Below, in pieces: positions 6,056 through 34,616 of a stretch of 34,616 nt of DNA; the stretch's first letter is position 1, and each line of letters starts with the position of its first letter. The stretch comes from Nitrospira sp. (GTDB lineage: Bacteria; Nitrospirota; Nitrospiria; Nitrospirales; Nitrospiraceae). A program made the translations under genes and the position numbers. The DNA is taken from contig JAOUMR010000026.1 of NCBI GenBank assembly GCA_029881435.1, forward strand, positions 1-34,616. Reading direction: 5' to 3'. The notes under the pieces were generated by a model. It was not told where the DNA came from. It saw only the letters and a list, made by a program, of their open reading frames with translations, and ran no database searches.

Positions 6056-6084
6056 TCTCGCCTTCCCCTGATGGACGGAAAGAA

Positions 6085-7041: not shown

Positions 7042-7051
7042 GAATTGCTCC

Positions 7052-9324: not shown

Positions 9325-9374
9325 GATTCCTCCCAATCTCGGTTACCTTCCCTACATTCCGCCCATCGCCACCG

Positions 9375-10595: not shown

Positions 10596-10619
10596 GTGAC
10601 GTGTACTCCTCTCTAAGAG

Positions 10620-12108: not shown

Positions 12109-12126
12109 GCCGACATTACCCTTCAG

Positions 12127-12399: not shown

Positions 12400-12445
12400 G
12401 GTTTGCTCCTTCTTTTGTCCAAAGGACAACGGTTGAACTATCGGG

Positions 12446-13891
12446 TTACGGCATCAGATGGCCGACACGGCCCTCCATTGCGCTGCCTGTGCTGATGCGA
12501 TTGGACAACATTTCCGCCGCAGGAGACCGTTGTCCTGCCTTGCCGCCGAAATAGCCTTTCTCGGAGAACCCCATCACGTAGAACTCGAAGTCGTTCGGCT
12601 CCACATAATAGTCCGTCGGCAACGTCTGCGCGGTCATGTCAAGCGGCTTCACTAAGTGCGGTGTCACGATGATTACTAATTCCGTTTCGCTCTTTTGGAA
12701 TGAACTGCTTCGGAACAAGGCACCTAGGATGGGAATCTCACCCAGAAACGGCACCTTTTTCACCGACTCCCTGACGTTGTCTCGCAACAACCCGCCGATG
12801 GCGAAGCTCTGTCCATCAGCCAATTCGATCGTCGTTGCCGCTCGCCTGGTCGAAATGGCGGGAACCGTGAACCCTTGTGTGCGTAACGCGTTCGAAAAAT
12901 CCAGTTCTGACACTTCCGGCGCGACATTCAGGCTGATGTGCTTGCGGTCCAAGACATTGGGCGTAAAGACCAACCCCACTCCGAACTTCTTGAATTGGAT
13001 CGTCACCAGACCAAATGCTTGCGGCACTGGTATGGGGAACTCACCACCGGCAAGAAACGCGGCTTCCTGGCCGTTCAACGCCATCAGGGTTGGTTTCGCC
13101 AACACTTTCAGCAAATTCTCTTCTTTGAGCGCATCGACAAATCCGATCCAGGTTGTGCCCCCGGCATTGAATCCGAAGGCGCCTTGGATCGCCTGCGTAA
13201 CCCCCGATGCCAAAGCCGGCGTCCCGCCCGTATAGGCGAGGCCGGCAATGCTCGTCAAATTTCCAAGCACGGAGAGGCCGAAGAAGTCGTTGCCGATTCC
13301 AGTAAAGTTGACTCCAAGCCGCCTGATCAATTCCCGGTTCATTTCAGCCACGCGGACTTCCAACATCACTTGTTGCACACCGCCGACCTGCATGGCATTC
13401 ACGATCTTCTTCGGCGCATAGGCCTCAGCCATGCTCAACGCCCGGTTCAGATTGTTGGCGTTTGAGGCAGTGCCCGAGAGCGTGATGTGATCGTGATCGG
13501 ACGTGACCAGGATGCCGTTTTCTTCCGGCAGGGTTTTGTGAAGATTCTCTTTCAGGCGGGTGACATCCGGCACGATCACCACATCGTACATGCCCATCAT
13601 CTTGCCGCTCTCATTCCACAGCGTGACATTCGTCACACCGATTGTCTTGCCGGTCAGGTAGATCTGCGTGGGAGAGAGGACGACCGTGTCGGCCACTTCC
13701 GGATTGGCCAATGACGCCCGCTTGATCGCCACGGGAAGATCCAGCACCTTCGATTTGCCCATGGTCAGCTCGAGCTTCTGAATGTCGCGCTGCTCCGCGG
13801 CTCCTGTTACCGATGCCTGCCCAAAGGCTTGGGTCTCGGCCAAGAGTGTGAGAGCACAGCCCATGATTGTGATCGCATTGCGTAATTTCAT
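12446..13891 (-). CDS. cpaC: Tad secretin RcpA/CpaC
   Basis: A 481-residue outer-membrane secretin through which the Flp pilus exits. There is a signal peptide (MKLRNAITIMGCALTLLAETQAFG), then the pilus-formation N-terminal domain (KSKVLDLPVAIKRASLANPEVADTVVLSP...) and a BON-like segment to about 170 (VTSDHDHITLSGTASNANNL). The secretin channel domain follows, with VMLEVRVAEMNRELIRRLGVNF near 180, VLAKPTLMALNGQEAAFLAGGEFPIPVP near 275, and ELVIIVTPHLVKP near 420. The ATG at 13889-13891 has GGAGGAGA upstream. Its N-domain is closely similar to the separate protein encoded just upstream. Confidence 0.92.
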   Translation of the reverse strand: MKLRNAITIMGCALTLLAETQAFGQASVTGAAEQRDIQKLELTMGKSKVLDLPVAIKRASLANPEVADTVVLSPTQIYLTGKTIGVTNVTLWNESGKMMGMYDVVIVPDVTRLKENLHKTLPEENGILVTSDHDHITLSGTASNANNLNRALSMAEAYAPKKIVNAMQVGGVQQVMLEVRVAEMNRELIRRLGVNFTGIGNDFFGLSVLGNLTSIAGLAYTGGTPALASGVTQAIQGAFGFNAGGTTWIGFVDALKEENLLKVLAKPTLMALNGQEAAFLAGGEFPIPVPQAFGLVTIQFKKFGVGLVFTPNVLDRKHISLNVAPEVSELDFSNALRTQGFTVPAISTRRAATTIELADGQSFAIGGLLRDNVRESVKKVPFLGEIPILGALFRSSSFQKSETELVIIVTPHLVKPLDMTAQTLPTDYYVEPNDFEFYVMGFSEKGYFGGKAGQRSPAAEMLSNRISTGSAMEGRVGHLMP

Positions 13892-13929
13892 CGGATGTCT
13901 CCTCCAGACGTTTGCCAACTTTCCTAACT

Positions 13930-14562
13930 TTAGAACTTCACTGCATTCACCGACGTCCCCTTGATCACTTCCACGGTCACAGTCTGCACATCAGGATGCC
14001 CCTTGCCTCCAGGCGGCTCGGGGTAGATCTTGAGAAAGTTCAGCACTTTCTTCGGCGCATAGGCTTCAGCCACCGCCAAGATCTGGCTCAGACGAGATTC
14101 ACTGGACACCGTCCCAAATACGGTCACATGGTCGTGGGTTCCCCTCAGACGAATATTCGTTTCATCCGGCAGCAGCTCGGCCAGCTGCTGTTTCAACCGG
14201 ACCAGGTCCACGCCCACATCCAGATCCAGGATGGCGAGCACCTTGCCGTCTGGTCCCCACAGCGTGAGGTTGGTCGTGCCATAGCCCTTCCCTGTCACGT
14301 AGATCTGTTTCGGACTCAGCACCATGGCATCGGCAATCTGCGGATCCGCCAACGATGCCCGCTTGATGGCGACGGGCATATTAACCACGGTCGACTTGCC
14401 GACCACTAGGTTGAGTTGCTGGGCGTCTGTTGATTGTGTAACGAGATGCATGCCCGTCTCCTTGGCCATGACGACCGAAGGCCCCGTCAGAAGAACCCCG
14501 CTGCAAACCAGGACTCCTATCCATTGTGCTTGAGTGCGTGATCGATGCTGTGTGAACTGCAT
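13930..14562 (-). CDS. Secretin N-domain-only protein with CpaB-like tail
   Basis: A 210-residue protein with a signal peptide. The secretin pilus-formation N-terminal domain includes VNMPVAIKRASLADPQIADAM, nearly the same as in the adjacent secretin, and a BON-like part is followed by AEAYAPKKVLNFLKI. There is no channel-forming domain, so it cannot make a pore alone. After a Pro/Gly linker it ends in VEVIKG-x5-VKF, matching the end of CpaB (VEIIKG-x5-IKF) encoded upstream. It may co-assemble with the periplasmic ring of the secretin. GGGAGG lies 7 nt before the chosen ATG (14560-14562). It probably arose by duplication of cpaC and recruitment of a cpaB-like end. Confidence 0.75.
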   Translation of the reverse strand: MQFTQHRSRTQAQWIGVLVCSGVLLTGPSVVMAKETGMHLVTQSTDAQQLNLVVGKSTVVNMPVAIKRASLADPQIADAMVLSPKQIYVTGKGYGTTNLTLWGPDGKVLAILDLDVGVDLVRLKQQLAELLPDETNIRLRGTHDHVTVFGTVSSESRLSQILAVAEAYAPKKVLNFLKIYPEPPGGKGHPDVQTVTVEVIKGTSVNAVKF

Positions 14563-14581
14563 TGCCGTGCCTCCCTGACTC

Positions 14582-15397
14582 TTAGAACTTGATTTCTTTA
14601 CGCACATCACCCTTAATAATCTCGACTCGAAACCCGCCTTCCCCGTTGGTCGCCGGCTTGGGGCGGTATGAACTTAACAACGATCCAACCCGAGCGCCTT
14701 TTGTCAGCACCTTCTCGCTGTTGAGAGGATTCCTCAATGCGAGCCGTAGCTTTCCCTGAGTAGAGGCCAGTGCCAGCTTCTCTGCCTCATCCACCTCCAC
14801 CTCCACCGTAATCACCTGCACCGGTTTCGGCTCCTCGTCTTTTCCCTTTCGCTCCATTTGCGTGCCGGCTGCCAACACCTTCACGTTTTCTAAGATCATT
14901 TTGGCGATCGCATGCTGTTGTCTACCCGTTTCCGGTTCGATCGTCACCATGACGTCGACGCGATCGGCGGGTTTGATGAACCCGGCGACACCAATGACAT
15001 CATCGACTTTGACCGACATGGCCCGCTTGTTCGGGTCCGTCACCGCCGCCACTCCGCCGACTGCCCCGACCGGCGCCAGCTTTGATTCCAGAAGCAGCTC
15101 ATTTCTTTTTAAATCTACGAGCACCACCCGGTCCTTAATCGCGTCCATCGTCGTAAAGTGTCCTTCGGGAATGGCGCCGGGCAGAACCTCCTGCATCAGC
15201 ATCATCTCGGGCGTCAGTTTGGTCCCCCAGGGAATATCGGCATTCGCCACCACCACCTGCACATTCTTGGTCGTGGACAATGGCGCCGCCAGCAACCGGC
15301 TTTTCTCGTTCTGTAGCCATGAGAACACGAGGACGCTGGTGACGAGGCCTAGCACCACCGCCAATCCGAAAAACACCAGAGGTCGATACCGCTTCAT
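14582..15397 (-). CDS. cpaB: Tad pilus assembly protein CpaB/RcpC
   Basis: A 271-residue CpaB/RcpC protein. It has one N-terminal membrane anchor (about 7-27), a SAF domain (VVVANADIPWGTKLTPEMM, about 48-110), then the RcpC domain (AMSVKVDDVIGVAGFIKPADRVDVMVT) and VITVEVEVDEAEKLALASTQGKLRLALRNP. The protein bridges the inner membrane machine and the secretin. Its ATG overlaps the TGA of a tiny upstream frame (15394-15480), and AGGAGG lies close upstream. It ends in VEIIKGDVRKEIKF, a tail also present on the next protein downstream. Confidence 0.9.
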   Translation of the reverse strand: MKRYRPLVFFGLAVVLGLVTSVLVFSWLQNEKSRLLAAPLSTTKNVQVVVANADIPWGTKLTPEMMLMQEVLPGAIPEGHFTTMDAIKDRVVLVDLKRNELLLESKLAPVGAVGGVAAVTDPNKRAMSVKVDDVIGVAGFIKPADRVDVMVTIEPETGRQQHAIAKMILENVKVLAAGTQMERKGKDEEPKPVQVITVEVEVDEAEKLALASTQGKLRLALRNPLNSEKVLTKGARVGSLLSSYRPKPATNGEGGFRVEIIKGDVRKEIKF

Positions 15398-15500
15398 TGC
15401 CCATCCTCCTCTTCAATCGCTGCCATCAGATTTCTTGCTTGCGCTCCGTTCATGAGTCTCACTCCCGCTGAACCAACCATAGCTGATTTCCGTGTGACGC

Positions 15501-16025
15501 CTACCCCCCGAAAGGGCTGAATCCAAGGAGAACCAGTAGGGTGCCGGCGGCGATCGCCAGCCCATACCGGAGTTTGAACGGCAACTGTAAATCCCCTACC
15601 CCAGTCGATCCACCGCTCACAACCGCACCATAGGTGGCGAATGCTAATTTTCTTGATGTGGCGACCACGCCCCATTGATAGGTCATCGCACCCAGCGCAT
15701 AGAGCCCTCCGGCTAATACTGAAAGCGCGGCGACGGAGAGCACGCCAGACGGACCGACTAGCGATCCGATGGCCGCCATCAATTTCACATCACCGGCTCC
15801 AATGGCCCTGCACGCATAGGGAAGTAAGAACAGCCCCATCCCGACGCCAAGTCCGGCCAAGCTAAACAATGCGCCGTACAGCCCACCTACCCAAGTTTGC
15901 ATAAGAAGGCTAATACCCATTGCCGAAAAGGTGAGCCAATTGGGGATGCGAGACCGCCGAAGATCGGTATAGATTGCCGCGATCAGCAGTAATGCCAGAA
16001 CGATAATCATCATGGATGGCATCAT
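15501..16025 (-). CDS. cpaA: Prepilin peptidase CpaA/TadV
   Basis: A 174-residue A24-type aspartic prepilin peptidase with five to six hydrophobic segments. The first catalytic Asp lies in AIYTDLRRSRIPNWLT near the N-terminus, and the second in the conserved GAGDVKL motif near the middle. It removes the leader of Flp and of TadE. The start is uncertain: adjacent ATGs at 16025 and 16022 follow CAGGAGACC, and a GTG at 16058 lacks a ribosome binding site. It follows flp across a strong hairpin. Confidence 0.88.
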   Translation of the reverse strand: MMPSMMIIVLALLLIAAIYTDLRRSRIPNWLTFSAMGISLLMQTWVGGLYGALFSLAGLGVGMGLFLLPYACRAIGAGDVKLMAAIGSLVGPSGVLSVAALSVLAGGLYALGAMTYQWGVVATSRKLAFATYGAVVSGGSTGVGDLQLPFKLRYGLAIAAGTLLVLLGFSPFGG

Positions 16026-23371: not shown

Positions 23372-25642
23372 CTAGGCAGCCTGGGCCGTCAATGCTCGCC
23401 ATTGATCAGCCCCCTTCTGAATCCGCTCGATCACAAATCCTGCTATGACCGTATCCTTGTCTTGCATCACCCACGTCCGGCGTATCTTCCCGGAGAATCC
23501 ACCCACATACAGCACTCCTCGATCATCGATCAGATCGATAGTCCCTGGAATATGGACGGAGAACCCTTCCTCCGAAATCTCGCCCAACCGGCCGATTACG
23601 ATCCGATCTCGAAACACGAGACGGCACTCTTGCCGATACGGCGTGCGTAGATACCGACGATTGGACATTCGCGGCTTAGTGAAGAGTTTGTGAAACGCTG
23701 CGATCACGGACCATAGACTTCGGAACATTCCGGGCTCACCCTCCGGCTGGTTCCAGACAGAAGAATCGGAAAATGCCATAGCAATTAACGCCTCAGTCTG
23801 TTTCTCGTCCACTTCGACAAACTTCGCTCCGATCTCCACACTGATCGCCGAGAGCCGTATTTGGCGGCAGATGGTCGCTTCCAGCACAAGATATTCACCT
23901 GCCGTACCTTTGATTCTGCAAAGCAGTCTTCCCGCGTTATCCGCTAACGGCTCGCTCAAATGGATGCAGGCCCCTGTTTCATTGATATCGATAACGGCAC
24001 CTTGGAGGTGCTGTTTCTCTGTCACCAATTCACAGGGACGGCGCCGTTTGATTCGGATCAGCGTCCGCCACTCGGGCAATTCTGCCGCAGCCATAATGAC
24101 CACACTCACCAGAACCACATTGACTCCGCCCCAAAAGAGACTGATCTCCAACCCAGGAACGAGTACATTCTGCCACCAAAGACGGATCCCGGTGACGAAT
24201 CCGGCTACCAGTAACCCCATGACGACCAGGTGCGGTATGCTGTAATAAAATCGTGTGAATCCCGGTTTCTCCTGCCTGGTTCCCTTTGGGGTAATGACAA
24301 AGGGACGTTGCCTTCTTGGACTGAGCGCGGTTTTCAATGCTGCCCAGCCGAGCGCCATGCTGTCTGCAGTTTCATAAATATCGGACCAAAACGCATTGCG
24401 TGTTCCTCGGCTAACCACCCGTAACATCACGAGCGTTGCCAGATAGTAGGATCCAAAAAAGTTCAGGATGGTCGGAAGATCAGCTATCACAGGTGCGATT
24501 CCGAAGAGGAGTGCAAAGAGCGGCGCGACAAGGCAAATGACGCGCGGGATGCCATGGACGAAATAGAAGATCGACGCAAAATACCCGAGGCGCTGGTGTA
24601 GCGAAAGGCCGCGCATCGTCAATGGGTTTGATCGAAACAAGATTTGCACATGGCCCGTCGCCCACCGTACACGTTGCTTGATCAAACTCTCAAATGTCTC
24701 CGGCATGAGTCCGGCCGCGAGGACTTTGTTGAGATAGCAGGAACGATAGCCTTTCGCATGAATCACCATGCTGGTATGGATATCTTCCGTTACAGTTTCC
24801 GTGCGGAATCCGCCGATTTCCTCCAATACACGGCGCCTGAACAGCCCGCAGCTTCCGGCGAAGAAGGCGCTATTGTGCCGATCGCGGCCGGATTGAAGCA
24901 CTCGATAAAATAGCGCTTGCTCATTCTTGAGCACTCCTTCAGTCCGCAAATTCTTCTGAAAGATGTCGGGATTATAAAAATGATGCGGTGTTTGAACAAA
25001 CGCCACCTGCTGGTCCTGGAACATTCCCACGGTATCGTGCAAGAAATCTGCGGTGGGGACATGATCAACATCAAAAATCGCAACAATCTCTCCGCTGGTC
25101 TGTTGCAAGGCGTGGTTCAGATTGCCGGCTTTGGCATGAAGTCGATCGGCCCGGCGTATATATCCGCAGTTCATCGATGCGGCCAGTTGCCGCACCTCGT
25201 CTCGTTTACCGTCATCGAGAATGTGAACGCGATAGCGGTTCTTGGGATACTGTTGACTCATACAACCGACTACCGTTCGACGGAGAATGGATAGCGGTTC
25301 ATCGACGACAGTGATGAAGACATCCACCGTTGGATAACTCGTCAACCGTACCGGTTTCCGTTCCAACGGAGACCACGCGTGATAGGCGAACAGGAGCACC
25401 TGAATGAAGGCGTAAACTTCTGCCGTGTAGACCGTCCAACTTACCAACAGGCTCGACCAATCGTCGGTATTCAACGTGTACAGTCCACGCCATACCAGGT
25501 ATCTGGTATAGAGCACCAGGGTCAGTACTAGAATGATCTGCCGCCCTTGCTTCATCCAGCTCAGTAGACAGATGACAGCCAGCCCAATCACGGACAGAGG
25601 GATGGCGACTGACGAAGCATAAAAGTCATGTATCCAGTTCAT
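23372..25642 (-). CDS. Cellulose-synthase-like GT2 with two C-terminal PilZ domains
   Basis: A 756-residue BcsA-type processive glycosyltransferase. N-terminal membrane segments occupy about 10-95. The GT domain carries ILDDGKRDE (DDG at 143-145), FDVDH (DxD at 191-193), QTPHHFYNPD, FFAGSCG (260-266), TED (285-287) and QRVRW (323-327). Further membrane segments lie at about 350-520. A first PilZ follows with R530-x3-R534 but DINETG (552-557) in place of DxSxxG. A second PilZ after a linker has R662-x3-R666 and EISEEG (688-693). No bcsB or bcsC is visible, so the polymer may not be cellulose. c-di-GMP binding is plausible but both motifs deviate. Confidence 0.8.
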   Translation of the reverse strand: MNWIHDFYASSVAIPLSVIGLAVICLLSWMKQGRQIILVLTLVLYTRYLVWRGLYTLNTDDWSSLLVSWTVYTAEVYAFIQVLLFAYHAWSPLERKPVRLTSYPTVDVFITVVDEPLSILRRTVVGCMSQQYPKNRYRVHILDDGKRDEVRQLAASMNCGYIRRADRLHAKAGNLNHALQQTSGEIVAIFDVDHVPTADFLHDTVGMFQDQQVAFVQTPHHFYNPDIFQKNLRTEGVLKNEQALFYRVLQSGRDRHNSAFFAGSCGLFRRRVLEEIGGFRTETVTEDIHTSMVIHAKGYRSCYLNKVLAAGLMPETFESLIKQRVRWATGHVQILFRSNPLTMRGLSLHQRLGYFASIFYFVHGIPRVICLVAPLFALLFGIAPVIADLPTILNFFGSYYLATLVMLRVVSRGTRNAFWSDIYETADSMALGWAALKTALSPRRQRPFVITPKGTRQEKPGFTRFYYSIPHLVVMGLLVAGFVTGIRLWWQNVLVPGLEISLFWGGVNVVLVSVVIMAAAELPEWRTLIRIKRRRPCELVTEKQHLQGAVIDINETGACIHLSEPLADNAGRLLCRIKGTAGEYLVLEATICRQIRLSAISVEIGAKFVEVDEKQTEALIAMAFSDSSVWNQPEGEPGMFRSLWSVIAAFHKLFTKPRMSNRRYLRTPYRQECRLVFRDRIVIGRLGEISEEGFSVHIPGTIDLIDDRGVLYVGGFSGKIRRTWVMQDKDTVIAGFVIERIQKGADQWRALTAQAA

Positions 25643-25994: not shown

Positions 25995-27038
25995 ATGAAG
26001 ATCACATCGATCACTGGAATCATTGTCGGTATCGGTGGTCTGATCCTGCTCCTGTTCACAACTGCACCGTTCAAGCTCACTATCCCCCGGCAGTCCTCCG
26101 ATTCGGACATAAAAACACAGGTAGTCGCCACGGTAGGAACACGCTCGATTACGCTGATGGAAGTTGAGCGAGCTGTCGCTCTTCAGCTGTATCAGGTAGA
26201 AGAGCAACGGGCGAAGTTGCTCAATGAGTCAACCCAACGTCTCATTGAAGAAGAACTGCTTTCAGCTGAAGCGGCCAGAATAGGCGTCTCTGTTCCGGAA
26301 CTCATAGAGAGAGCGAGTCAATCTGAAGAGATAGCCAAACTGGCCGGTCTACCGGCCCCAGTGCGCCTAGCCATGCAGCCTTCTCAGAAGCTCACAATGT
26401 CACTCCCCTTTCAAATCCCCAAGGACGTATCCAGGATTCGGCAAGCACTGCTAGTTCAATTGCACCGAAAGACCAAGATCCACGCTAATCTCTCTCAACC
26501 AGAACGACCCGTGCTGAATGTCAGTCCAGATGACGATCCCTGGATCGGCACAGCCCAAGCTCCAATAACGATCGTCGAGTTCTCTGACTTTCAGTGTCCC
26601 TACTGCCAACGGAGTGTGCCCATACTCAAAGAGCTCCTGGAAAAATATCCAGGCAAATTGAAGCTGGTCTATCGTGATTTCCCAGGACCGAATCATCAGC
26701 ATGCCTTGTCGGCCGCAGAAGCAGCACAGTGTGCCGTAGAGCAGAGCCGATTTTGGGAATATCATGATGCTTTGTTCGCCAGTCAGACACCGGAAATCGG
26801 ATGGAAGTTTTCCGCTCTAGCCGAAAACCTGGGCCTACGTCAATCGCCATTCAATGCTTGCATGAAGGAACACCGTTATCGCGAAGAGGTATTGAATGAT
26901 CTGCAGGATGGGCTGAAACTTGGCGTGACGAGTACCCCGACTTTCTTCATCAATGGTCGCCCCTTGGTCGGCGCACGACCGCTTGCTGATTTTCAAGCCA
27001 TCATTGACCCACTGCTCAAGCAACCCTCTTCGCCATAG
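25995..27038 (+). CDS. Membrane-anchored DsbA-like thioredoxin with SurA-type N-domain
   Basis: A 347-residue exported protein: an N-terminal signal/anchor (about 1-24), then a helical region (SITLMEVERAVALQLYQVEE, LIEEELLSAEAARIGVSVPEL) like the chaperone N-domain of SurA/PpiC proteins, and a DsbA-type thioredoxin domain from about 190. The active site is C201-P-Y-C204 in FSDFQCPYCQ and the cis-proline loop is TSTPTFFIN (Pro315). It probably catalyses disulfide formation or isomerisation in the periplasm, possibly for Cys-containing pilus or surface proteins encoded nearby. ATG 25995 follows GAGGAAG; an upstream ATG at 25974 is possible. Confidence 0.8.
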   Translation: MKITSITGIIVGIGGLILLLFTTAPFKLTIPRQSSDSDIKTQVVATVGTRSITLMEVERAVALQLYQVEEQRAKLLNESTQRLIEEELLSAEAARIGVSVPELIERASQSEEIAKLAGLPAPVRLAMQPSQKLTMSLPFQIPKDVSRIRQALLVQLHRKTKIHANLSQPERPVLNVSPDDDPWIGTAQAPITIVEFSDFQCPYCQRSVPILKELLEKYPGKLKLVYRDFPGPNHQHALSAAEAAQCAVEQSRFWEYHDALFASQTPEIGWKFSALAENLGLRQSPFNACMKEHRYREEVLNDLQDGLKLGVTSTPTFFINGRPLVGARPLADFQAIIDPLLKQPSSP

Positions 27039-27228
27039 TCTCCTTTGCCTCTAACACCAAGTGCAACATCAATGGCCCTCAACCACGCCGACGCTCAACA
27101 CAGCGTCCACCCACTCGTCTGATCGGTAGGTTCCCCTCCTTTTGACGTACCTCGTTCAGTTCTACCGTTGAGGATCAGACCTGTTACGGTTGACTCAAGT
27201 GCAACGCGAACACCAAAGGAGGGCTGCA

Positions 27229-27474
27229 ATGAGTTGTACACGCTGTCAGGGGCTGATGCTGGAAGAACAAATGATTGATATGGAGGCCAGCTATGGCGAG
27301 ATGTGGGTCTGCGCCCGGCGGTATGTCAATTGTGGCTATCGACAGGACGCCGTCATGCAGCAGCACCGTCTGGCGCAGGCTCCGCAGCAATTGGTCAGCC
27401 ACCATGTCGTGACAGTTCGAGACCCCATTGATCTGGCGTGGGAATCTGAGTCGGTCGATGCCCTGGCTGCCTAA
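27229..27474 (+). CDS. Zinc-ribbon protein, copy 1 (degenerate second knuckle)
   Basis: An 81-residue protein starting MSCTRCQGLM, with C3xxC6 and, in the middle, RRYVNCG with Cys35 but Tyr32 where its paralogue at 32137-32382 has Cys32. It has an extra Cys28 that could substitute. It aligns without gaps to the paralogue with about 29 identities, including the HRLA segment and the terminal LAA. GGAGGG lies 6 nt before the ATG. It stops 53 nt before a receiver gene on the same strand, so they are likely co-expressed. Function unknown; zinc or protein binding is inferred. Confidence 0.7.
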   Translation: MSCTRCQGLMLEEQMIDMEASYGEMWVCARRYVNCGYRQDAVMQQHRLAQAPQQLVSHHVVTVRDPIDLAWESESVDALAA

Positions 27475-27526
27475 GAGGGCCAGGGAACCGCGCGGGGGGA
27501 ATCGCCGGGGAGGAAGGGGTGAGGTG

Positions 27527-27910
27527 ATGAGGCCAGCGGCCATCCTGATCATCGAAGATTATGCGTCAGTACGTACGATGCTGGCTCAGTTGCTTGCGGA
27601 TGTCGGCTATCGCATCTACGTGGCCGCCAATGGTCGACAGGGCCTCGAGCAGTTTCGCGCATATCCTGTGGATCTGGTCCTCACGGATCTGGAGATGCCG
27701 GAGATGAACGGGCTGGACGTCATCAAGGAATTGACCCGTACGGGCCTGGACGTGAAGATCATTGCTATGACCGGGGTAGATTCCGGGGAGTTAGAGAAGG
27801 CCAAACTCTATGGGGCGCGGCAGATCTTTCCCAAGCCCCTTGACCTCCGAGCCCTGCTCCACGCCATCCAATATGAGTTAGGGCAGACGAACCTCGAACA
27901 AGCGAGTTGA
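27527..27910 (+). CDS. Single-domain response regulator 1
   Basis: A 127-residue stand-alone receiver (CheY-like) domain. The acidic pair is E10-D11 in LIIEDYAS, the phosphorylated Asp is D54 in VLTDLEMPEMNG, and the conserved T82 and K103 (FPKPL) are intact. No output domain, so it acts by protein contact. Ribosome binding purines (AAGGGGTGAGG) precede ATG 27527. It is paired with the zinc-ribbon gene just upstream; no histidine kinase is nearby. Confidence 0.85.
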   Translation: MRPAAILIIEDYASVRTMLAQLLADVGYRIYVAANGRQGLEQFRAYPVDLVLTDLEMPEMNGLDVIKELTRTGLDVKIIAMTGVDSGELEKAKLYGARQIFPKPLDLRALLHAIQYELGQTNLEQAS

Positions 27911-28097
27911 CACGGTGCAGACCGAGACCACTCACGCCTGGCATGCCGCATCTCCCTGACGACCCCTGGAACGGACATCGAGCGCGTGTCAGATACAACC
28001 CCGTCACGGACCACCGTCTGCAGCGTAACCCAGTCCTTTCCCATGTGAGGGTGGAAGCGAAACCCTGAATTCCGATCGCCGACCACCGTAGCATCTC

Positions 28098-28322
28098 TTG
28101 CTCTCCCACGGACAACGGGCTCCGTCCCTCGCGACAATCGTCTTGAGGCCATTCAAGGATCGGACAGGAAACCGTCGTAACGCTAACCCATTCGCTTTCT
28201 GTACTCTACAGGCGCTGGTCACGCTGGCCCATGAAACCAAGGAATGGAGTGTGGCTCATGCCCTGATGTGTGGAGTAGCGTACTTGGGAAGGTTCGGCTT
28301 CCGGGTGACTTTCTGCGTGTGA
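28098..28322 (+). pseudogene. Decayed third copy of the 81-residue protein gene
   Basis: The frame translated from about 28146 to 28265 (RPFKDRTGNRRN ... TKEWSVAHAL) matches 20 of 40 positions of the central and C-terminal part of the 81-residue protein at 29377-29622. The N-terminal half is missing from this frame and there is no ATG or ribosome binding site. A related N-terminal trace (TDNGLRPSR) is in another frame, suggesting a frameshift. The frame runs past the normal end. It looks like an old, inactivated copy. Confidence 0.55.
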
Positions 28323-28406
28323 ATCCGGCGTCTCGTTGAAAATCTATCCAGTTCAGGTAGAGTACAACCGATTCATTGGTCTGACAGAGATGCGGCAAGG
28401 GAGTGT

Positions 28407-28769
28407 ATGGCCACCATATTGGTGATGGATGATGAAGCTTCCATTCGGCTGTTGTTGTCGACAGCTCTTCAATCGGCGGGCCACGCGGTGGTCGAAGCAT
28501 CAAATGGGCGCGAGGGGCTGAGGGTGTACCGTCAGACGCCTGCAGATTTGGTCATCGTGGATCTGCTGATGCCTGAGTTGAATGGATTCGATACGATCAT
28601 GGAACTCACGCGCGAATTCCTAGACATCAAGGTCATTGCCATGTCTGGAGTATTTGGTGATGAATTCATGAAGAAGACGGCCAGGCTGTTGGGTGTCCGA
28701 CAGACGGTGCGCAAACCGTTTGGAATTGAGGAAATACTGAAAGCCGTCCGGTATGAGTTGATGCACTAG
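28407..28769 (+). CDS. Single-domain response regulator 2
   Basis: A 120-residue receiver domain with D8-D9 (MDDEASIRLLL), phospho-acceptor D52 (VIVDLLMPELNGFD), S80 and K103 (VRKPF). It is closest to the receiver at 31713-32075 (same length, same MDDEA start, Y-x-L-x-H end). GGGAG precedes the ATG. No output domain and no kinase nearby. Confidence 0.87.
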   Translation: MATILVMDDEASIRLLLSTALQSAGHAVVEASNGREGLRVYRQTPADLVIVDLLMPELNGFDTIMELTREFLDIKVIAMSGVFGDEFMKKTARLLGVRQTVRKPFGIEEILKAVRYELMH

Positions 28770-29176
28770 TCCTCTCAGCCAAGATGAAAGATGCGATCCG
28801 CAGGGAGAGACAGCGGTTGTTTCCTGCATCTTGATCCTCAGACAACGCCCGTTCGACAAGAGGCAGTTCGAAGTCTTTTACAGATTTATCCACAAATTCA
28901 GCCGTGGTCTTGAAGGGGCCAACGAGACACCACCGTCAAGAACCCATTCCCTCAACGTGCATACGTGCCACTACTGTGGTGAATTTTGTGACAAAACCCT
29001 GCAGGAATGGAAGGGAAGCCACGGGAACGTATAGAATCGGTGGAATGCGGTAACCTCTTAATATTACAGCGAATAGATGGGAAACCGTTGCGATAGCGAG
29101 CACTTATCAAAAACCGTTCGTTCGAACTTTTAAGGCGAGGGCCCTCATGCCCCTCCGTGTATAGTTGAATAGTTCT

Positions 29177-29225
29177 GGTCGCCACCGGCAACAGCCGACC
29201 GGCTAACGCCTGCGAGGCGCATCGC
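29177..29225 (+). ncRNA. Conserved structured leader of the 81-codon gene, copy A
   Basis: Two hairpins are conserved between both unit copies: GGTCG (29177-29181) with CGACC (29196-29200), and GCGA (29212-29215) with TCGC (29222-29225). They lie about 150-200 nt upstream of the start codon. In copy B the corresponding stems are at 33202-33225 and 33237-33250. A leader RNA element is possible; it matches no riboswitch I recognise. Confidence 0.3.
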
Positions 29226-29376
29226 TCATGCCAGTCAACCTGTCATTCCCGCTGCGTGATCCTCTCCAGCCCGCCGGTTCCGGCCTCTGCCTCCTGGTTC
29301 CTCCGTGAACTGGGCGGTGCCTCTCCTCCTCTCGTGAGAGAGTCACCTACAGTTCAACATACAAGGAGGAACCATC

Positions 29377-29622
29377 ATGGCGACCACCACATCATCCAAA
29401 CGACCGGCGACCACGCTCCGATGCGGCAACATCAAAGCGACGATCTGGCAGAATGTGAGCGAGAACGGACCATTCTTCGCCACGACCTTTTCTCGCCCGT
29501 TTAAGGATCAGACCGGTGCCTGGCACAACGGCACCTCGTTCGGTCTCAATGACCTGGAGGCGCTCATGAATGTCGCCTTTGAGGCGAAGGAGTGGATCGC
29601 CGCTCACGAATTGAAGCGCTGA
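29377..29622 (+). CDS. 81-residue conserved hypothetical protein, copy A
   Basis: A small soluble protein: a basic Ser/Thr N-terminus, then LRCGNIKATIWQN, an ATTFSRPFKDQTGAW segment and FGLNDLEALMNVAFEAKEWI at the C-terminus. The pattern suggests two or three beta strands (a pair of strands around an aromatic-basic loop) followed by one helix. I recall similar uncharacterised small proteins in accessory regions of other bacteria but cannot assign a function. AGGAGGA lies 6 nt before the ATG. It shares 72 of 81 residues with copy B at 33398-33643, while most nucleotide differences are silent, so both are probably functional. Confidence 0.75.
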   Translation: MATTTSSKRPATTLRCGNIKATIWQNVSENGPFFATTFSRPFKDQTGAWHNGTSFGLNDLEALMNVAFEAKEWIAAHELKR

Positions 29623-29633
29623 GCGTTTTCTTG

Positions 29634-29666
29634 GGAAGCCTCTGGCCATCCGGGGCTTCCTGTTCT
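29634..29666 (+). terminator. Hairpin after 81-codon gene copy A
   Basis: GGAAGCCTC (29634-29642) pairs with GGGGCTTCC (29652-29660), one G-U pair, 9-nt loop, followed by TGTTCT. It lies 12 nt after the stop codon. A shorter, mismatched version follows copy B. Confidence 0.55.
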
Positions 29667-30129
29667 ACGGTGCGATGACTGCCCGGTTAGTACACAGAGC
29701 ATTCATGGTTTGCGCTGCTCGGAGATTACATCTCGAAGCCGGATCCTTACAACAATTCCCCGATTCAGCTGCGAGCAACTCTAGAGCAATGAACGCTAGT
29801 TCGTTACCTTCAGGAATCTGTGGGATAGGGAACCTTGCGAACTTGTTTTCCACGAACACTACCAACAGAGAGTCACCAGGCGGAGTGCCATTGAAACGAA
29901 TGGAACACGAGACTTCTGCTTCGGTTTCGCGACCGCAGCGACGAGTGAGTTGACTCAAAGGTCTCGGGATCCACACTCGGTATTCGTCGGGGATTCGTGC
30001 ATTCTTGGAGCGGTCCCCAAAGAAAATCGGATCAGTATCCGTGTATATACGGGGTCGCGCTCGATGAGCCGTGAAATGCTTGCAGTGCATGCTCGATATG
30101 CTATCCTTCTGCCATTCCGACTCACTCAA
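29665..30129 (-). CDS. Possible hypothetical protein, start uncertain
   Basis: An uninterrupted minus-strand frame whose C-terminal part reads like a real protein (GDSLLVVFVENKFARFPIPQI, then EGNELAFIALELL), a beta-strand pattern followed by a helix. The 5' part is unconvincing: the open frame begins at a TTG without a ribosome binding site, and the first ATG is at 30090. No family recognised. It is divergent from the PilZ gene. It may also be a spurious frame. Confidence 0.3.
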   Translation of the reverse strand: MSESEWQKDSISSMHCKHFTAHRARPRIYTDTDPIFFGDRSKNARIPDEYRVWIPRPLSQLTRRCGRETEAEVSCSIRFNGTPPGDSLLVVFVENKFARFPIPQIPEGNELAFIALELLAAESGNCCKDPASRCNLRAAQTMNALCTNRAVIAP

Positions 30130-30152
30130 TGGGATGAATGATCGAGAGGACT

Positions 30153-30719
30153 ATGAGGAAAATTGCCGAGTACCAGGGGTACACGATTGAATCCGCTCCA
30201 CAACCAGACACACAGGGAGAGAAGTGGCGACTTCGTATCTACATTTCGGTCCAACATCCCCGCGGGATTCAGACTCGTGAATTCACCGCGGATGGCCTCT
30301 ATGCCACCGAGAACGAAGCCGATCTCCATGGACTGGCGTTTGGACAGCGTGTCATTGATGGAAAGGTGGATGGCAAGACCGTGTGGGATCTCAAGTCCCA
30401 GGACCGTCGGATCACACCACGCTTCAGAGTCCAGTTTCGCACCACGTTTTCCTCCTCTCCGACACTGGACGGAACAGGGATGATCCTGGATCTCTCCGCT
30501 GGTGGCTGTCGGATTGAAAGCAGCGTGTCGCTCACGGCAGGTCTCTCGCTGGAACTCCGGATCTATGCGGAAGGCTTGGAATGGCCGTTAATGGTGGAGG
30601 CAGCGACTGTACAATGGGTCAGCGGACAGACGTTTGGGTTGGCGTTCTTCCGGATGAAGGAAGCCGAGCGGCAGCGGCTGGAGCAGGTCATCCAGGACCT
30701 GACAGACCCTCCCATCTGA
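30153..30719 (+). CDS. PilZ-domain protein 1
   Basis: A 188-residue protein with an N-terminal alpha/beta region (about 1-80: IAEYQGYTIESAPQP, LRIYISVQHPRG) and a C-terminal PilZ domain. The c-di-GMP-binding signature is complete: R86-x3-R90 (RITPR) and D113-x-S115-x2-G118 (DLSAGG). The conserved C-terminal strand GQTFGLAFFRM is present. It is a candidate c-di-GMP effector for the surface and pilus functions of this region. ATG 30153 has GAGAGGA just upstream; the ATG at 30138 is less well placed. Confidence 0.82.
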   Translation: MRKIAEYQGYTIESAPQPDTQGEKWRLRIYISVQHPRGIQTREFTADGLYATENEADLHGLAFGQRVIDGKVDGKTVWDLKSQDRRITPRFRVQFRTTFSSSPTLDGTGMILDLSAGGCRIESSVSLTAGLSLELRIYAEGLEWPLMVEAATVQWVSGQTFGLAFFRMKEAERQRLEQVIQDLTDPPI

Positions 30720-30774
30720 ATGAATACGAACCGAATTATAGGTGTCAAAGAACGGGCTTGCTGGGAGGCCCTTA

Positions 30775-30827
30775 TCTCGTACGTGATGGAGCCATCGAGC
30801 GTGCGCGCTCTGAGCCTCTGTACGAGA
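30775..30827. other. Three-way-junction-like element between convergent PilZ genes
   Basis: An outer 8-bp perfect stem TCTCGTAC (30775-30782) / GTACGAGA (30820-30827) encloses two small hairpins: GATG/CATC (30785-30788 / 30793-30796, 4-nt loop) and GAGCG/CGCTC (30797-30801 / 30806-30810, TGCG loop). It fills most of the gap between the two convergent PilZ genes. It may act as a two-way terminator or be an old mobile repeat. Confidence 0.5.
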
Positions 30828-30831
30828 CCGC

Positions 30832-31476
30832 TTAATTCTCTGCAATCACATCACGATCGGACCCTGCACGCACCATGTGAATAACGCGCATCGCGCGAAG
30901 GATGCGGTGTGCCTCGCGCCACAGCTTCTCGGGCCCCTCGTCACACGAGGCATCGGACCCGCCTTCCTCTGAATCTGAATCATCCTTTCCTCGTGCCTCG
31001 GCTGGTCGGTGAGTCGAATCGATCTGAAGATCCAGCAGGTGTTGGAAGATGTCCTCAAGTGATGGGATGCCACGCGGGGGCAGAGCGCGTTGAAGGTTCG
31101 GCAACACCGTCGCAAGTGAAGCCTCCGGATGAGTGGCGCGCGACATCCATTTGAGACCAAGTTTATGGTGCAGGAATTCGCTGACCCACGCCTGATCCAT
31201 CGGTTCCAGGTCCTGCACTTCGATGGCGAATTCATGATCCTTGACCCACAAGACGGTCGCCCGTTGGACGCGAAGCAATGTGGGTCGTTCGGGAACGGAC
31301 ACCTGCAAGGTCAACTGCATGCCGGCTACCACGGGCATCGTTCCCACCACTCGCCAACCTCGAGCGGTCAGATCTAAGACGGTCCCTTCGGCCAGAAAGG
31401 TGGCATTGCCATACCGCATGGGCCAGCCGACTGGAAACCGACTCGAACGCCGCACGGGACTCTTTCTATTCTGCAT
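30832..31476 (-). CDS. PilZ-domain protein 2 with C-terminal extension
   Basis: A 214-residue protein beginning with a PilZ domain: R9-x3-R13 (RRSSR), then D35-L-T37-A-R-G40, where Thr replaces the usual Ser of DxSxxG, and a late strand DHEFAIEVQDLEPMDQAWV. The second half (about 110-214) is a predicted helical region with an acidic, disordered patch (GKDDSDSEEGGSD) and a C-terminal helix; its role is unknown. GGAG lies 7 nt before the ATG. It faces PilZ protein 1 tail to tail and is followed upstream by a receiver and zinc-ribbon gene on the same strand. Confidence 0.78.
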   Translation of the reverse strand: MQNRKSPVRRSSRFPVGWPMRYGNATFLAEGTVLDLTARGWRVVGTMPVVAGMQLTLQVSVPERPTLLRVQRATVLWVKDHEFAIEVQDLEPMDQAWVSEFLHHKLGLKWMSRATHPEASLATVLPNLQRALPPRGIPSLEDIFQHLLDLQIDSTHRPAEARGKDDSDSEEGGSDASCDEGPEKLWREAHRILRAMRVIHMVRAGSDRDVIAEN

Positions 31477-31712
31477 GAGGGGCTCCTTCCCTTGATGGCT
31501 CTCGGCCTAGAGAAAGCGTAGCCCGGCGGTCCGCCCTGCGCCTTCCCCGAACTTGGTACTTCAGAAGGGGGGGGGCTAGAGTCGGTGAAGTCGTGTTGGG
31601 ACGGATATGCCACGAGCTCTCGCACACAGGCGGTGAGCTGAACCATGTCCAATGATGATCGCAGGGAGGGAAGAATCAGACTAAGCCATGACGCAGGATG
31701 GGGACAGCTGCG

Positions 31713-32075
31713 CTAGTGAGCCAGGGTATACCGGACCGCTCGCCGTACTTCATCCGGGGTGAACGGTTTTTGAATCACACGGCGTGCTCCAAATAATTTG
31801 GCGATGTTCAGATAGTTCCGGTCTCCGGTGGCGCCGGTGATGGCAATGACTCGGGCGTCGAGGAATTCTTGTGTGAGAGCCAGCGTCACTTCCAGCCCGT
31901 CCCGCTCCGGCATCAGGATGTCGGTAATGACGACATCGGCCGGCGCTTCGCGATAGAGTGTGAGGCCGTGGTGGCCGTTGGCCGCTTCGCGTATCTGATG
32001 GCCGTCGTCGTCAAGAATTCTGCGCAACAACAACCGAATCGGTGCTTCATCGTCCATGATTAAGATCGAGGCCAT
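31713..32075 (-). CDS. Single-domain response regulator 3
   Basis: A 120-residue receiver domain with D8-D9 (MDDEAPIRLLL), phospho-acceptor D52 (VITDILMPERDG), T80 and K103 (IQKPF), all intact. Closely related to the receiver at 28407-28769. AGGAAGGG precedes the ATG. It lies between the PilZ 2 and zinc-ribbon 2 genes, all on the minus strand, mirroring the plus-strand order. Confidence 0.87.
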   Translation of the reverse strand: MASILIMDDEAPIRLLLRRILDDDGHQIREAANGHHGLTLYREAPADVVITDILMPERDGLEVTLALTQEFLDARVIAITGATGDRNYLNIAKLFGARRVIQKPFTPDEVRRAVRYTLAH

Positions 32076-32136
32076 GGCCCTTCCTGGAACGCACGCAATG
32101 GGTGTGGACGCTTCCGTGTTGGTCGTTACACAGGAA

Positions 32137-32382
32137 TCAGGCCGCTAGCGTAATGACGGCTTCCGTGTCCGCATCGAATTCGTTGTTCGCATTGTATAGT
32201 GCATGACTTGGAGGCACCAGTTTCTGTTGTATTCTGGCCAGCCGATGATGCTCGATAACCGGGTCGTGGACGTTGCCACAATTCATGCACCGATGCCCGC
32301 TGGCCCGCGTATGCCCGATCGTCCCTTCGAAGTCCAAGAAGTGCTCTCTCACCATCAGACCGTGGCAACGTGAACAGTTCAT
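32137..32382 (-). CDS. Zinc-ribbon protein, copy 2 (intact)
   Basis: An 81-residue paralogue of the protein at 27229-27474, with C3xxC6 (MNCSRCHGLM) and C32xxC35 (HRCMNCG), forming a complete four-Cys zinc ribbon. Then HHRLARIQQKLV and an acidic tail ending LAA. The ATG at 32380-32382 has GGAGAG 6 nt upstream; a much longer frame upstream has no start signal. The receiver gene at 31713-32075 follows 61 nt downstream. Confidence 0.72.
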   Translation of the reverse strand: MNCSRCHGLMVREHFLDFEGTIGHTRASGHRCMNCGNVHDPVIEHHRLARIQQKLVPPSHALYNANNEFDADTEAVITLAA

Positions 32383-32961
32383 ATGCGCTCTCCGGGTTAC
32401 AGGTTGTGGGGCTCGTGCGTGCTGTGGAAACGATACCAAAGTCCTGGGGATGAGGTAGACCCAGAGGAGGTAACGCAAACGAGGGGGCACGACGACACAG
32501 GCGTGATCGGATTGAAACGAGGAGGCCTGCTCTATAGGCTTCTTGACCTTATTTGGTAGAGACTGAACGAACCTACTGAGTCATGTGGTTGCGAAGAGAG
32601 GGGACAGCAAGCCGTTGGTTTATCGCTTACTCCCATCAGTCCGAGACGGGTCTGGATCGTCAGATTCCTGGTTGCATTTGGTTGCAGAGTTGCGGTCATT
32701 TTGCCCTGTTTTGTCCTGTTTTGCAGAGCTAAGTCGTTGATCTTGTTGATGTAGCATTGCGTCCGGTGCAATTCGAAACCCGTACTCCACCTAACAGAAC
32801 AACAACTGGCAACAACGTCTACGTTTCTTATCAAGAATCGCCTATTGCTCTACCTCGAACTTCCATCCCCAGAGCCCTCAGAAATTGTTTAGGTGAACGG
32901 GCTGAGGTTTGGGAATCGCTCCGAACGGCGGGCAAGGAAGAAGCCTCTTGCACGTTTCTCC
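32383..32961. other. Long gene-poor stretch with 10-bp phased repeats
   Basis: About 580 bp without a convincing gene. At 32699-32728 three consecutive 10-bp units begin TTTTG (TTTTGCCCTG, TTTTGTCCTG, TTTTGCAGAG), and TTGCAGAG occurs a second time about 40 bp upstream. The region may hold the promoter of the zinc-ribbon gene on the minus strand. Confidence 0.4.
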
Positions 32962-33675
32962 CAAGAACCAACTCCCTCGACGTGTATAGGTGCTACTACT
33001 GTGGTGGATTTCGTGACACAAATCTGCAGGAACGGAAGGAAAGAGACGGGAACGCATAGAATCAATAGAAAGCGCTCACCTCTTAATATTGCAACGAATA
33101 GTGGGGAAATCCTTGCCACAGCGAACATTCCTAAAAACCAGCTATTTGAACTTTTAAGGCGAGGGCCTCCATCCCCCTCCGTGTCTCGTTGAGATAGTTC
33201 TGGTCGCCAACGGCGATAGCCGACCGGCTCTAACCTGCGAGGCGCATCGCTCGCGCCAGTGTCCTGTCACTCTCGCTGCGTGGTCCTCTCCGGTCCGCCG
33301 GTTCCTGCCTCTGCCTGCTGTTTCCTCGGTGACCTGTGCGGTGCCTCTCCTCTTCTCGTGAGAGAGCCACCTTCATCTCACACAAGGAGGAACCATCATG
33401 GCGACCAACACTTCATCCAAACGACCGGCGACGACGCTGCGATGTGGGAACATCAAGGCGACGATCTGGCGGAATGTCAGCGAGAAAGGCCCGTTCTTCT
33501 CCACGACCTTTTCTCGCCCGTTCAAGGATCAGTCCGGCGCCTGGCGCAACGGCACCTCGTTCGGGCTCAATGATCTCGAGGCACTCATGAATGTCGCCTT
33601 CGAGGCCAAGGAGTGGATCACTACTCACGCGCTGAAGCGCTGAGTTGCTTCCAAGGGAAGCCTCCGGGAGCTTAC
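32962..33675 (+). repeat. Duplicated accessory unit, copy B
   Basis: Direct repeat of the 28936-29655 unit, with the same order: CxxC-like short stretch ending in TAG (33057-33059), leader with two conserved hairpins (33202-33225 and 33237-33250), ribosome binding site, 81-codon gene, hairpin remnant. The two copies are about 4 kb apart and flank the PilZ, receiver and zinc-ribbon genes. Confidence 0.75.
33398..33643 (+). CDS. 81-residue conserved hypothetical protein, copy B
   Basis: Paralogue of the protein at 29377-29622, same length, 72 of 81 residues identical. The nine differences are mostly conservative or in the variable ends (Asn4, Arg25, Lys30, Ser35, Ser46, Arg50, Thr75-Thr76, Ala78). 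About twice as many nucleotide changes are silent, indicating purifying selection since duplication. AAGGAGGA lies 6 nt upstream of the ATG. Function unknown. Confidence 0.75.
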   Translation: MATNTSSKRPATTLRCGNIKATIWRNVSEKGPFFSTTFSRPFKDQSGAWRNGTSFGLNDLEALMNVAFEAKEWITTHALKR

Positions 33676-34057
33676 CTTCAGCCGTGTGCAATAACCGTCC
33701 AGTCGTTGTTGCAAGCTCGGGCTGGACACGGCAGGTGGTACAAACAGTCCTGCCCGGCATCCACGCCTTGATCCTGACGGGTGACGGGTGCGACTCAGGT
33801 TATGGAGTCGACACCATTGATGGCCAACAACTACTCCACAAACAGGCATGGCGACGTCCACAAGTGGCTGGCAAATCGCACACCATTTCAGATGTACTTC
33901 TACCCACGCCTTCTCTCTGGCAAGCCAAGGGAGAGGAGATCCTCCGCAAGATTCACCGGGTGAAACAGGTGCTGACTGTCTAGCTATTGAAGAAACCCTG
34001 CACCAGAGAGTTTTGTGACCGCCCGGAGCAAGTCCAATGTGAAGACATGTCAGCGTC
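33676..34057. other. Gene-poor stretch before the transhydrogenase gene
   Basis: About 380 bp. An open frame exists on the plus strand (to 33983) but it starts at TTG, has no ribosome binding site and no recognisable pattern. I see nothing else supportable here. Confidence 0.35.
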
Positions 34058-34616
34058 TTACCGGTCTGGAGCCCAGGGACGTGGTAAGCGATTGATGCCG
34101 TCCAGTGCGGCGACTTTATAACATTCTGCCAGCGTCGGGTAATTAAAGACCGTGTCGATGAAGTAGTGGATTGGACTCCGATGAGCCATGATGGCCTGAC
34201 CGATATGGATCAGCTCCGTCGCCCCTTCTCCGATGATATGGACGCCGAGCAATTCGTAGGTCTGCCGGTGAAACAAGAGTTTGAGCATGCCGGTATCGTC
34301 ACCCATCAGCAGCCCACGGGCGATTTCTTTATAGCGGGCTGTACCCACGGCATAGGGAACATCAGCCTGAGTGAGTTCTTCCTCGCTCGCTCCCACCATG
34401 GAGATTTGCGGAATGGAGTAAATGCCATAGGGCAATAAGGAGTTGTCAATGCGATCCGGATGGCCGAAGGCATGGCAGGAGGCGTGGCGGCCTTGCTGCA
34501 TCGAGGTTGAGGCAAGGGCCGGAAAGCCGATGACGTCGCCGGCCCCATAGATATGTGGAACCGCGGTCTGGAAGTGTTCGTTCACGCCCAGGCGACCGCG
34601 ATTGTCTGGTTTCAAT
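34058..34616 (-). CDS. sthA: Soluble pyridine nucleotide transhydrogenase (SthA-like), 3' part
   Basis: C-terminal 185 residues of a class I flavoprotein disulfide-reductase-family enzyme; the gene runs off the right edge. Visible are the FAD-binding segment PHIYGAGDVIGFPALAS and the dimerisation domain (YGIYSIPQISMVGASEEEL; YKEIARGLLMGDDTGMLKLLFH; GVHIIGEGATELIHIGQAIM; FNYPTLAECYKVAALDGINRL). The combination, lacking the His-Glu motif of lipoamide dehydrogenase at the end, is typical of SthA, which equilibrates NADPH and NADH. A dihydrolipoamide-dehydrogenase-like relative is possible. Confidence 0.82.
   Translation of the reverse strand, partial: LKPDNRGRLGVNEHFQTAVPHIYGAGDVIGFPALASTSMQQGRHASCHAFGHPDRIDNSLLPYGIYSIPQISMVGASEEELTQADVPYAVGTARYKEIARGLLMGDDTGMLKLLFHRQTYELLGVHIIGEGATELIHIGQAIMAHRSPIHYFIDTVFNYPTLAECYKVAALDGINRLPRPWAPDR

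Follow-up and report, generated by a model that had tools for sequence, protein, structure and literature searches.

The receiver protein RssB, which has an additional C-terminal domain, delivers a sigma factor, RpoS, to the protease ClpXP. Caulobacter has a single-domain receiver, CpdR, that primes ClpXP, and a cyclic di-guanosine monophosphate (c-di-GMP) effector, PopA, that adds substrates, as described in PMC8973945. ClpXP substrates may also be marked at the C-terminus: PMC7652416 describes Ala-Ala-COO- as the part of the ssrA degron that matters most, and states that related degrons direct other proteins to ClpXP. LVA is a known variant of the tag (PMC9382460). A stretch of 34,616 nucleotides (nt) from Nitrospira sp., contig JAOUMR010000026.1 (here termed the window), displays at positions 27229–32382 two convergent arms with genes for small zinc-ribbon proteins, single-domain receivers and PilZ proteins. 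Zinc ribbon 1 is on arm 1 (plus strand) and zinc ribbon 2 is on arm 2 (minus strand). The finding of interest is a conserved Ala-Ala tail at the C-terminal end of the zinc ribbons, which the preliminary description of this region did not mention.

The tail was followed in distinct zinc ribbons, i.e. with identical proteins counted once. A set of 71 was drawn from 60 loci that two N-terminal peptide patterns had picked out, 29 loci found with the zinc-ribbon profile and three of this genome. Sixty-seven of the 71 end in Ala-Ala and one (L151) ends in LVA; the end is Leu-Ala-Ala in 31. The same end is present in 8 of 319 other long open reading frames of these loci (stop-to-stop frames of at least 200 aa, which may include non-genes and repeated orthologues), in none of 74 receivers and in 1 of 23 PilZ-bearing open reading frames. 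A second, wider sample of 74 distinct zinc ribbons was taken from 17 phylum-search loci and 60 chosen places, has nine proteins in common with the first set, and omits zinc ribbons cut by a contig end. Fifty-three of these end in Ala-Ala, and the two samples pooled give 111 of 136.

All four alanine codons and all three stop codons occur at the tails. On a 59-row tree, which includes the tail columns and from which the divergent rows L160, L161 and L165 were excluded, the penultimate codon shows at least 15 codon changes with one amino acid change, and the last codon at least 17 codon changes with none. The three preceding codons show 20–22 codon changes with 9–15 amino acid changes. Since the codons vary while the terminal alanines hardly change, this points to selection on the alanines at the protein level rather than at the DNA level. 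The approximately 20 residues before Ala-Ala are variable and predicted to be disordered. In an AlphaFold2 model of zinc ribbon 2, residues 58–78 have a predicted local distance difference test score (pLDDT) below 50, thus the tail is predicted to be flexible.

The tag encoded by the transfer-messenger RNA (tmRNA) of this genome (3.72 Mb in 206 contigs) is ANQELALAA. Zinc ribbon 1 shares ALAA with it and zinc ribbon 2 shares LAA. The ClpX protein of the same genome keeps the GYVG, pore-2 and RKH sequences when compared with solved ClpX chains (tag-binding loops, named in part as in PMC7652416). We infer that the Ala-Ala end is a putative ssrA-like degron through which the zinc ribbon would be degraded by ClpXP. 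With such a tail, the zinc ribbon is probably short-lived.

The zinc ribbon and a close downstream single-domain receiver form a fixed pair. In this genome, each of the four zinc ribbons with a match to the whole profile is followed by a same-strand receiver. In other genomes a receiver is found within 400 nt of the zinc ribbon at 51 of 60 loci, the misses being L128, L132, L154, L157, L158, L159, L162, L163 and L164. The gap between the profile matches, in 62 distinct pairs, is 52–71 nt in 57, 52–84 nt in 59 and 142–162 nt in three. With 92 receiver matches in 3.72 Mb, a same-strand receiver start would fall within 100 nt by chance in about one of 800 tries. Zinc-ribbon and receiver distances are correlated (Mantel r 0.86, with none of 1000 permutations as high). 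In the pooled samples a receiver is located within 400 nt of 77 of the 111 Ala-Ala-ended zinc ribbons vs 4 of the 25 others (Fisher p 1.5e-6, uncorrected for kinship). Many loci are orthologous or near-copies. Among the matches listed, loci of one clade of zinc ribbons, clade B (including a copy on contig C10 of this genome), mostly share one neighborhood, with efflux-type genes upstream and symporter-type and DinB-type genes downstream as judged by sequence appearance, and therefore are not independent events.

The zinc-ribbon profile (E ≤ 1e-8) finds matches in 143 of 147 genomes of the family, with 1–13 per matching genome, not all of them paired or Ala-Ala-ended. Of the 245 genomes sampled across the phylum, 133 have a match to the profile. 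Named relatives of the window's zinc ribbons are recorded almost all as Nitrospira. Seven loci from outside the family (L222–L228) display neither an Ala-Ala end nor a receiver within 400 nt. The genome of the window itself holds about 20 small CxxC-type zinc-ribbon matches, and some unpaired ones are also Ala-Ala-ended (C153:11104, C63:12304, C138:25339).

The seven open reading frames and their arrangement, as first described, were verified by open reading frame calling and Pfam. The order on arm 1 is zinc ribbon 1, receiver 1, receiver 1b, a repeat of about 700 bp with an 81 aa open reading frame, and PilZ1; on arm 2 it is zinc ribbon 2, receiver 2 and PilZ2. Zinc ribbon, receiver and PilZ thus follow in the same order on both arms. 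The features are as follows.

27229–27474, plus strand: zinc ribbon 1 (arm 1, clade A), 81 aa, C-terminus ...VDALAA, C32 replaced by Y
27466–27474, plus strand: Ala-Ala-stop of zinc ribbon 1 (GCT GCC TAA); ALAA equals the last four residues of the tmRNA tag
27527–27910, plus strand: receiver 1 (single-domain, clade A), 127 aa, Pfam PF00072 E 1.7e-24, nearest relative 74% (L121)
28407–28769, plus strand: receiver 1b (single-domain), 120 aa, orthologues (78–79%) after the zinc ribbon-receiver pair in L109, L111 and L112
28937–29623, plus strand: direct repeat copy 1, between receiver 1b and PilZ1, holding an 81 aa open reading frame at 29377–29622
30138–30719, plus strand: PilZ1 (N-terminal CV_2116 and PilZ domain), 193 aa, start probably at 30153
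30832–31476, minus strand: PilZ2, 214 aa, relatives in G078 (79% and 63%, two frames) and L110 (55%)
30908–32791, minus strand: arm-2 cassette block, colinear with G078 (L252 9051–10943), 79% over 1907 nt
31713–32075, minus strand: receiver 2 (single-domain, clade B), 120 aa, Pfam E 1.2e-23, 84% to the C10 copy
32137–32382, minus strand: zinc ribbon 2 (arm 2, clade B), 81 aa, four cysteines, C-terminus ...VITLAA
32962–33644, plus strand: direct repeat copy 2, outside arm 2, open reading frame at 33398–33643

Both zinc ribbons are of exactly 81 residues, as had been noted. The gapless alignment claimed for them is obtained when four proteins are aligned (36% identity); when only the two sequences are aligned, small gaps appear (41% and 39% identity). 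Neither zinc ribbon has a Pfam family above cut-off or an NCBIfam family. The CxxC...CxxC motif is present in 70 of the 71 distinct zinc ribbons and zinc ribbon 1 is the sole exception; this protein has a Cys four residues before the Tyr that replaces its zinc-ligand Cys. The zinc ribbon 2 model shows strands at 9–17 and 25–32 and a helix at 41–55, which places the two CxxC knuckles on beta hairpins. A fold search of the PDB with the model gave no match at E ≤ 0.001. The top matches, the MqsA N-terminal domain and ZifS (E 0.24–0.54), are not significant, and therefore no toxin-antitoxin relationship is claimed. Three sequence matches to a solved fucosyltransferase (E 0.014–0.016) were judged to be chance.

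All three receivers match Response_reg in Pfam (E 1.7e-24 to 5.1e-23). The phosphorylation site is kept across 62 receivers, with the Asp in 61, the Lys in 62 and Thr or Ser in 62. As these are single-domain receivers without an output domain, the zinc ribbon encoded next to them is their natural partner. In NCBIfam, the two best matches of receiver 1 are RssB models and CpdR is also matched, both ClpXP adaptors but all far under cut-off, and this is only a hint. The receivers of zinc-ribbon loci often end in Leu-x-His (LDH in 12, LQH in 11 and LLH in 11 of 74).

In the mechanism proposed here, each arm would be a two-gene unit composed of a phosphorylatable receiver and a probably short-lived zinc ribbon whose ssrA-like Ala-Ala degron sits at the end of a disordered tether. 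ClpXP, or another AAA+ protease that reads a C-terminal Ala-Ala, would keep the zinc ribbon scarce. The receiver, by its phosphorylation state, might shield the zinc ribbon, release it or deliver it to the protease, and a histidine kinase encoded elsewhere would in this way set the zinc-ribbon level. Where a PilZ protein accompanies the pair, c-di-GMP could be a second input or the output. A proteolytic switch of this kind is the simplest mechanism that would unite tail and receiver, and CpdR and PopA, which act as ClpXP adaptors in Caulobacter (PMC8973945), are a precedent for it. The gating of a ClpXP-degraded zinc ribbon by the receiver, and in some lineages by c-di-GMP, is hypothetical, and the scheme as a whole is favored tentatively, at slightly less than even confidence.

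Several observations weigh against this scheme. Three receiver-paired zinc ribbons (L160, L161 and L165) end in neither Ala-Ala nor LVA, and 34 of the 111 Ala-Ala-ended zinc ribbons lack a receiver within 400 nt, thus the tail is independent of the receiver. Only one of 16 weaker zinc-ribbon matches in this genome (C4:39292) has a receiver within 400 nt downstream. In zinc ribbon 1 the C32 to Y change removes one of the four motif cysteines, and its usual zinc binding may be gone. The quality of the zinc ribbon 2 model is moderate (mean pLDDT 66.5, predicted template modeling score 0.46). Against the curated CpdR model NF046022, which has a cut-off of 180 bits, receiver 1 scores 63.5 and receiver 2 scores 55.1; the best NCBIfam match of receiver 2 is a CheY model, CpdR is second, and no CpdR or RssB cut-off is passed. 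None of the 25 clade-B loci in other genomes has a PilZ gene within 3 kb. Finally, the Ala-Ala end could instead be read by a different protease or by a binding partner.

In a different explanation, the zinc ribbon is a stable output partner of the receiver that binds DNA, RNA polymerase or a protein, and the Ala-Ala has a non-proteolytic role, e.g. as a docking peptide. The fixed gene pair and the correlated divergence of its members are as expected of such a complex, and the tails that occur without a receiver favor it as well. Zinc ribbons are common in transcription proteins, and ribbons of RNA polymerase and TFIIS are among the weak fold matches, none of which reaches E ≤ 0.001. However, a stable complex leaves unexplained why only the terminal alanines are kept on a freely changing tail that is predicted to be disordered, and it leaves unexplained the resemblance to the end of the tmRNA tag. 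It is considered not very likely, but it carries some weight.

PilZ proteins appear to be a looser third partner. PilZ1 scores 40.5 bits against Pfam PF07238 (cut-off 22.5). PilZ2 scores 17.2 bits and thus falls under the cut-off, but is matched at E 3e-15 by a genome-specific profile built on 24 of the genome's PilZ domains, a set that includes two PilZ domains encoded downstream of clpX and not PilZ2 itself. Orthologues favor 30153 over 30138 as the start of PilZ1. The two proteins have 33% identity over 83 aa. RxxxR together with DxSxxG is the c-di-GMP-binding motif of PilZ domains. By eye, PilZ1 displays both elements and PilZ2 has DxTxxG. The PilZ proteins near such pairs are probable c-di-GMP binders.

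The preliminary description had proposed a recurrent functional trio, and this stands for the zinc ribbon and the receiver but only in part for PilZ. Of the 60 loci elsewhere, 18 of the 26 in clade A have a PilZ gene within 3 kb and none of the nine outside clades A and B does; the profile, made from this genome alone, may miss distant PilZ proteins in other genomes. Clades A, B and C were assigned by a short motif; L141 has the clade-A motif but falls in clade B in the trees, and with this change the counts would be 18 of 25 for clade A and 0 of 26 for clade B. The clade-B exceptions seen are arm 2 of the window and its relative in G078, another genome of the genus. L110 holds a PilZ2 relative (55%) on the strand opposite to a clade-A pair, 3.2 kb away from it. 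A suspected PilZ-like gene downstream of the C10 clade-B pair (L065:3005–3568) was rejected, as Pfam found nothing in it.

These neighborhoods might also reflect ordinary clustering, in which the zinc ribbon and receiver are an operon and the PilZ genes are neighbors by history in a genome with many PilZ and receiver genes. The genome does hold 35 PilZ and 92 receiver matches, and the loci are often orthologous: those of clade B share one PilZ-free neighborhood and some of clade A are near-copies. But with 35 PilZ matches in 3.72 Mb, a PilZ gene would be expected within 3 kb by chance in about 5% of cases (per 6 kb), far from the 18 of 26 seen in clade A. Moreover, all 18 are on the strand of the zinc ribbon although their positions vary, i.e. 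0.02–0.1 kb upstream (L123, L128, L131), 0.55–0.71 kb upstream (L109, L111, L112, L121) or downstream. In another zinc-ribbon subfamily, of a second genus, 9 of 13 distinct members have a PilZ domain that ends 0.2–0.3 kb upstream; none has a receiver within 400 nt, and one of the four PilZ misses (L197) has only 393 nt of upstream DNA. The recurrence of the whole arm-2 trio in G078 also speaks against clustering alone, which is thus regarded as unlikely.

A second arrangement concerns clpX itself. At all 13 loci of the same genus (G000:C71:2481–4952, i.e. L249, and L258–L269; one further genome of the genus has no clpX match), clpX is followed by two tandem PilZ genes on the same strand, and at none of 12 loci from the order's other families, with flanks of 1.5 kb inspected. 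The first of these PilZ proteins ends in Ala-Ala in 10 of the 13. The adjacency may be taken as a second circumstantial hint of a link between ClpXP and c-di-GMP. A broader proposal is that Nitrospira, independently of Caulobacter, has evolved a multi-copy proteolytic switch in which kinase signals, through a single-domain receiver, and c-di-GMP, through PilZ, would jointly decide the ClpXP destruction of a zinc-ribbon regulator whose ssrA-like tail is encoded in the genome; this is speculative and held to be rather improbable.

The two arms had been suggested to be an inverted cassette duplication around a structured element at 30775–30827. Trees, which were quick and based on only 81 (zinc ribbon) and 120 (receiver) columns, place the arms in different clades. 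In the tree of 62 zinc ribbons, zinc ribbon 1 is inside a 28-row clade with a Shimodaira-Hasegawa-like approximate likelihood ratio test (SH-aLRT) value of 100, and zinc ribbon 2 is outside of it; in the tree of 65 receivers the split of clades A and B has moderate support (SH-aLRT 89). Constraining the arms together is rejected by the approximately unbiased (AU) test for both the zinc ribbon (p 0.0059) and the receiver (p 0.0004). Within the genome, the zinc ribbon-receiver DNA of arm 1 is closest to contig C180 (68.8% over 762 nt) and that of arm 2 to contig C10 (69.6% over 766 nt).

Each arm also has its relatives in other genomes. Arm 2 is colinear with G078, where the zinc ribbon (72%), receiver (83%) and PilZ2 relatives follow in the same order. 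The PilZ2 relative (L252/L230) changes frame around residue 72, owing either to a frameshift in the gene or to an error of assembly. The 19 kb read around the arm-2 match in G078 contains no close relative of arm 1. For arm 1, loci L109, L111 and L112 (the last two are near-copies) display consecutively a PilZ1 orthologue (75–77%), 0.69–0.71 kb, the zinc ribbon, the receiver and the receiver 1b orthologue, and L121 has a PilZ1 orthologue (82%), zinc ribbon and receiver together. PilZ1 is located at the opposite end of arm 1 in the window as compared with these four loci.

Since each arm has closer relatives of its own elsewhere, the window is, as judged from these comparisons, two separately inherited cassettes joined head-on. 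Although the three protein types are in identical order on both arms, duplication of a single cassette is extremely improbable, given the AU test, the loci that are closer to each arm than the arms are to each other, the low identity of PilZ1 and PilZ2, a longest inverted repeat in 27000–34616 of 27 nt at 74%, and a center that is not structured beyond chance. Folding of 30710–30850 gives z = 0.09, and 107 of 200 shuffled sequences fold equally well or better. An Rfam scan of 26000–34616 shows no family at gathering score; terminator-like sites number 5 vs 6.0 in shuffles and promoter-like sites 2 vs 2.9.

The direct repeats of about 700 bp have blocks that are 78–89% identical, with a decayed piece at 28113–28265. 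Their 81 aa open reading frame has 13 matches in the genome, including partial ones, and no Pfam or NCBIfam family. The repeats were considered as a mobile-element unit of the module and rejected, as they lie inside arm 1 but outside arm 2. They are judged not to be part of the module, though the cassettes may have been moved by them. Upstream in the window, positions 23372–25642 encode a glycosyltransferase-like protein with one PilZ-profile match, a second being suggested by its sequence, and genes at about 6000–16000 resemble a Flp/Tad pilus cluster by sequence appearance.

Among the papers searched, none joins “single-domain response regulator” and “zinc ribbon”. Papers on Nitrospira with PilZ, c-di-GMP, zinc ribbon or response regulator, judged by title, include none on this module. 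The components known from elsewhere, i.e. receivers, PilZ proteins and C-degrons, are here set on a zinc-ribbon family for which the searches of Pfam and NCBIfam gave no entry. Should the tail be a degron, there would be a large unstudied set of short-lived signaling proteins in Nitrospira, and these would offer a direct test of how single-domain receivers and c-di-GMP effectors can be linked to regulated proteolysis outside the Alphaproteobacteria.

A close counterpart is the CpdR/RcdA/PopA system of Caulobacter. There, as described in PMC8973945, a single-domain receiver and a c-di-GMP effector control the degradation of regulatory proteins by ClpXP, and here a receiver, a PilZ protein and an Ala-Ala-ended protein are gene neighbors. 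Unlike in that system, the Ala-Ala protein, a putative ClpXP substrate, is a zinc ribbon, and the receivers are below the CpdR cut-off. RssB is similar to the extent that its models are the best matches, far below cut-off, of receiver 1. The receivers resemble CheY-like and CpdR-like proteins in the Response_reg domain, the length of about 120 aa and the kept Asp, Thr/Ser and Lys, but differ in having a fixed zinc-ribbon partner and, commonly, a C-terminal His. The PilZ proteins share the PilZ domain with others of their kind, but PilZ1 is fused to CV_2116, and PilZ2 has DxTxxG and is under the Pfam cut-off. With the ssrA tag and natural Ala-Ala C-degrons, as these are presented in PMC7652416, the zinc ribbons have in common a terminal Ala-Ala, often Leu-Ala-Ala, on a tail predicted to be flexible; unlike the ssrA tag, theirs is encoded in the genes of one protein family and is not added by tmRNA. 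Taken with these likenesses, the zinc ribbon-receiver-PilZ neighborhoods suggest a possible protein-breakdown switch.

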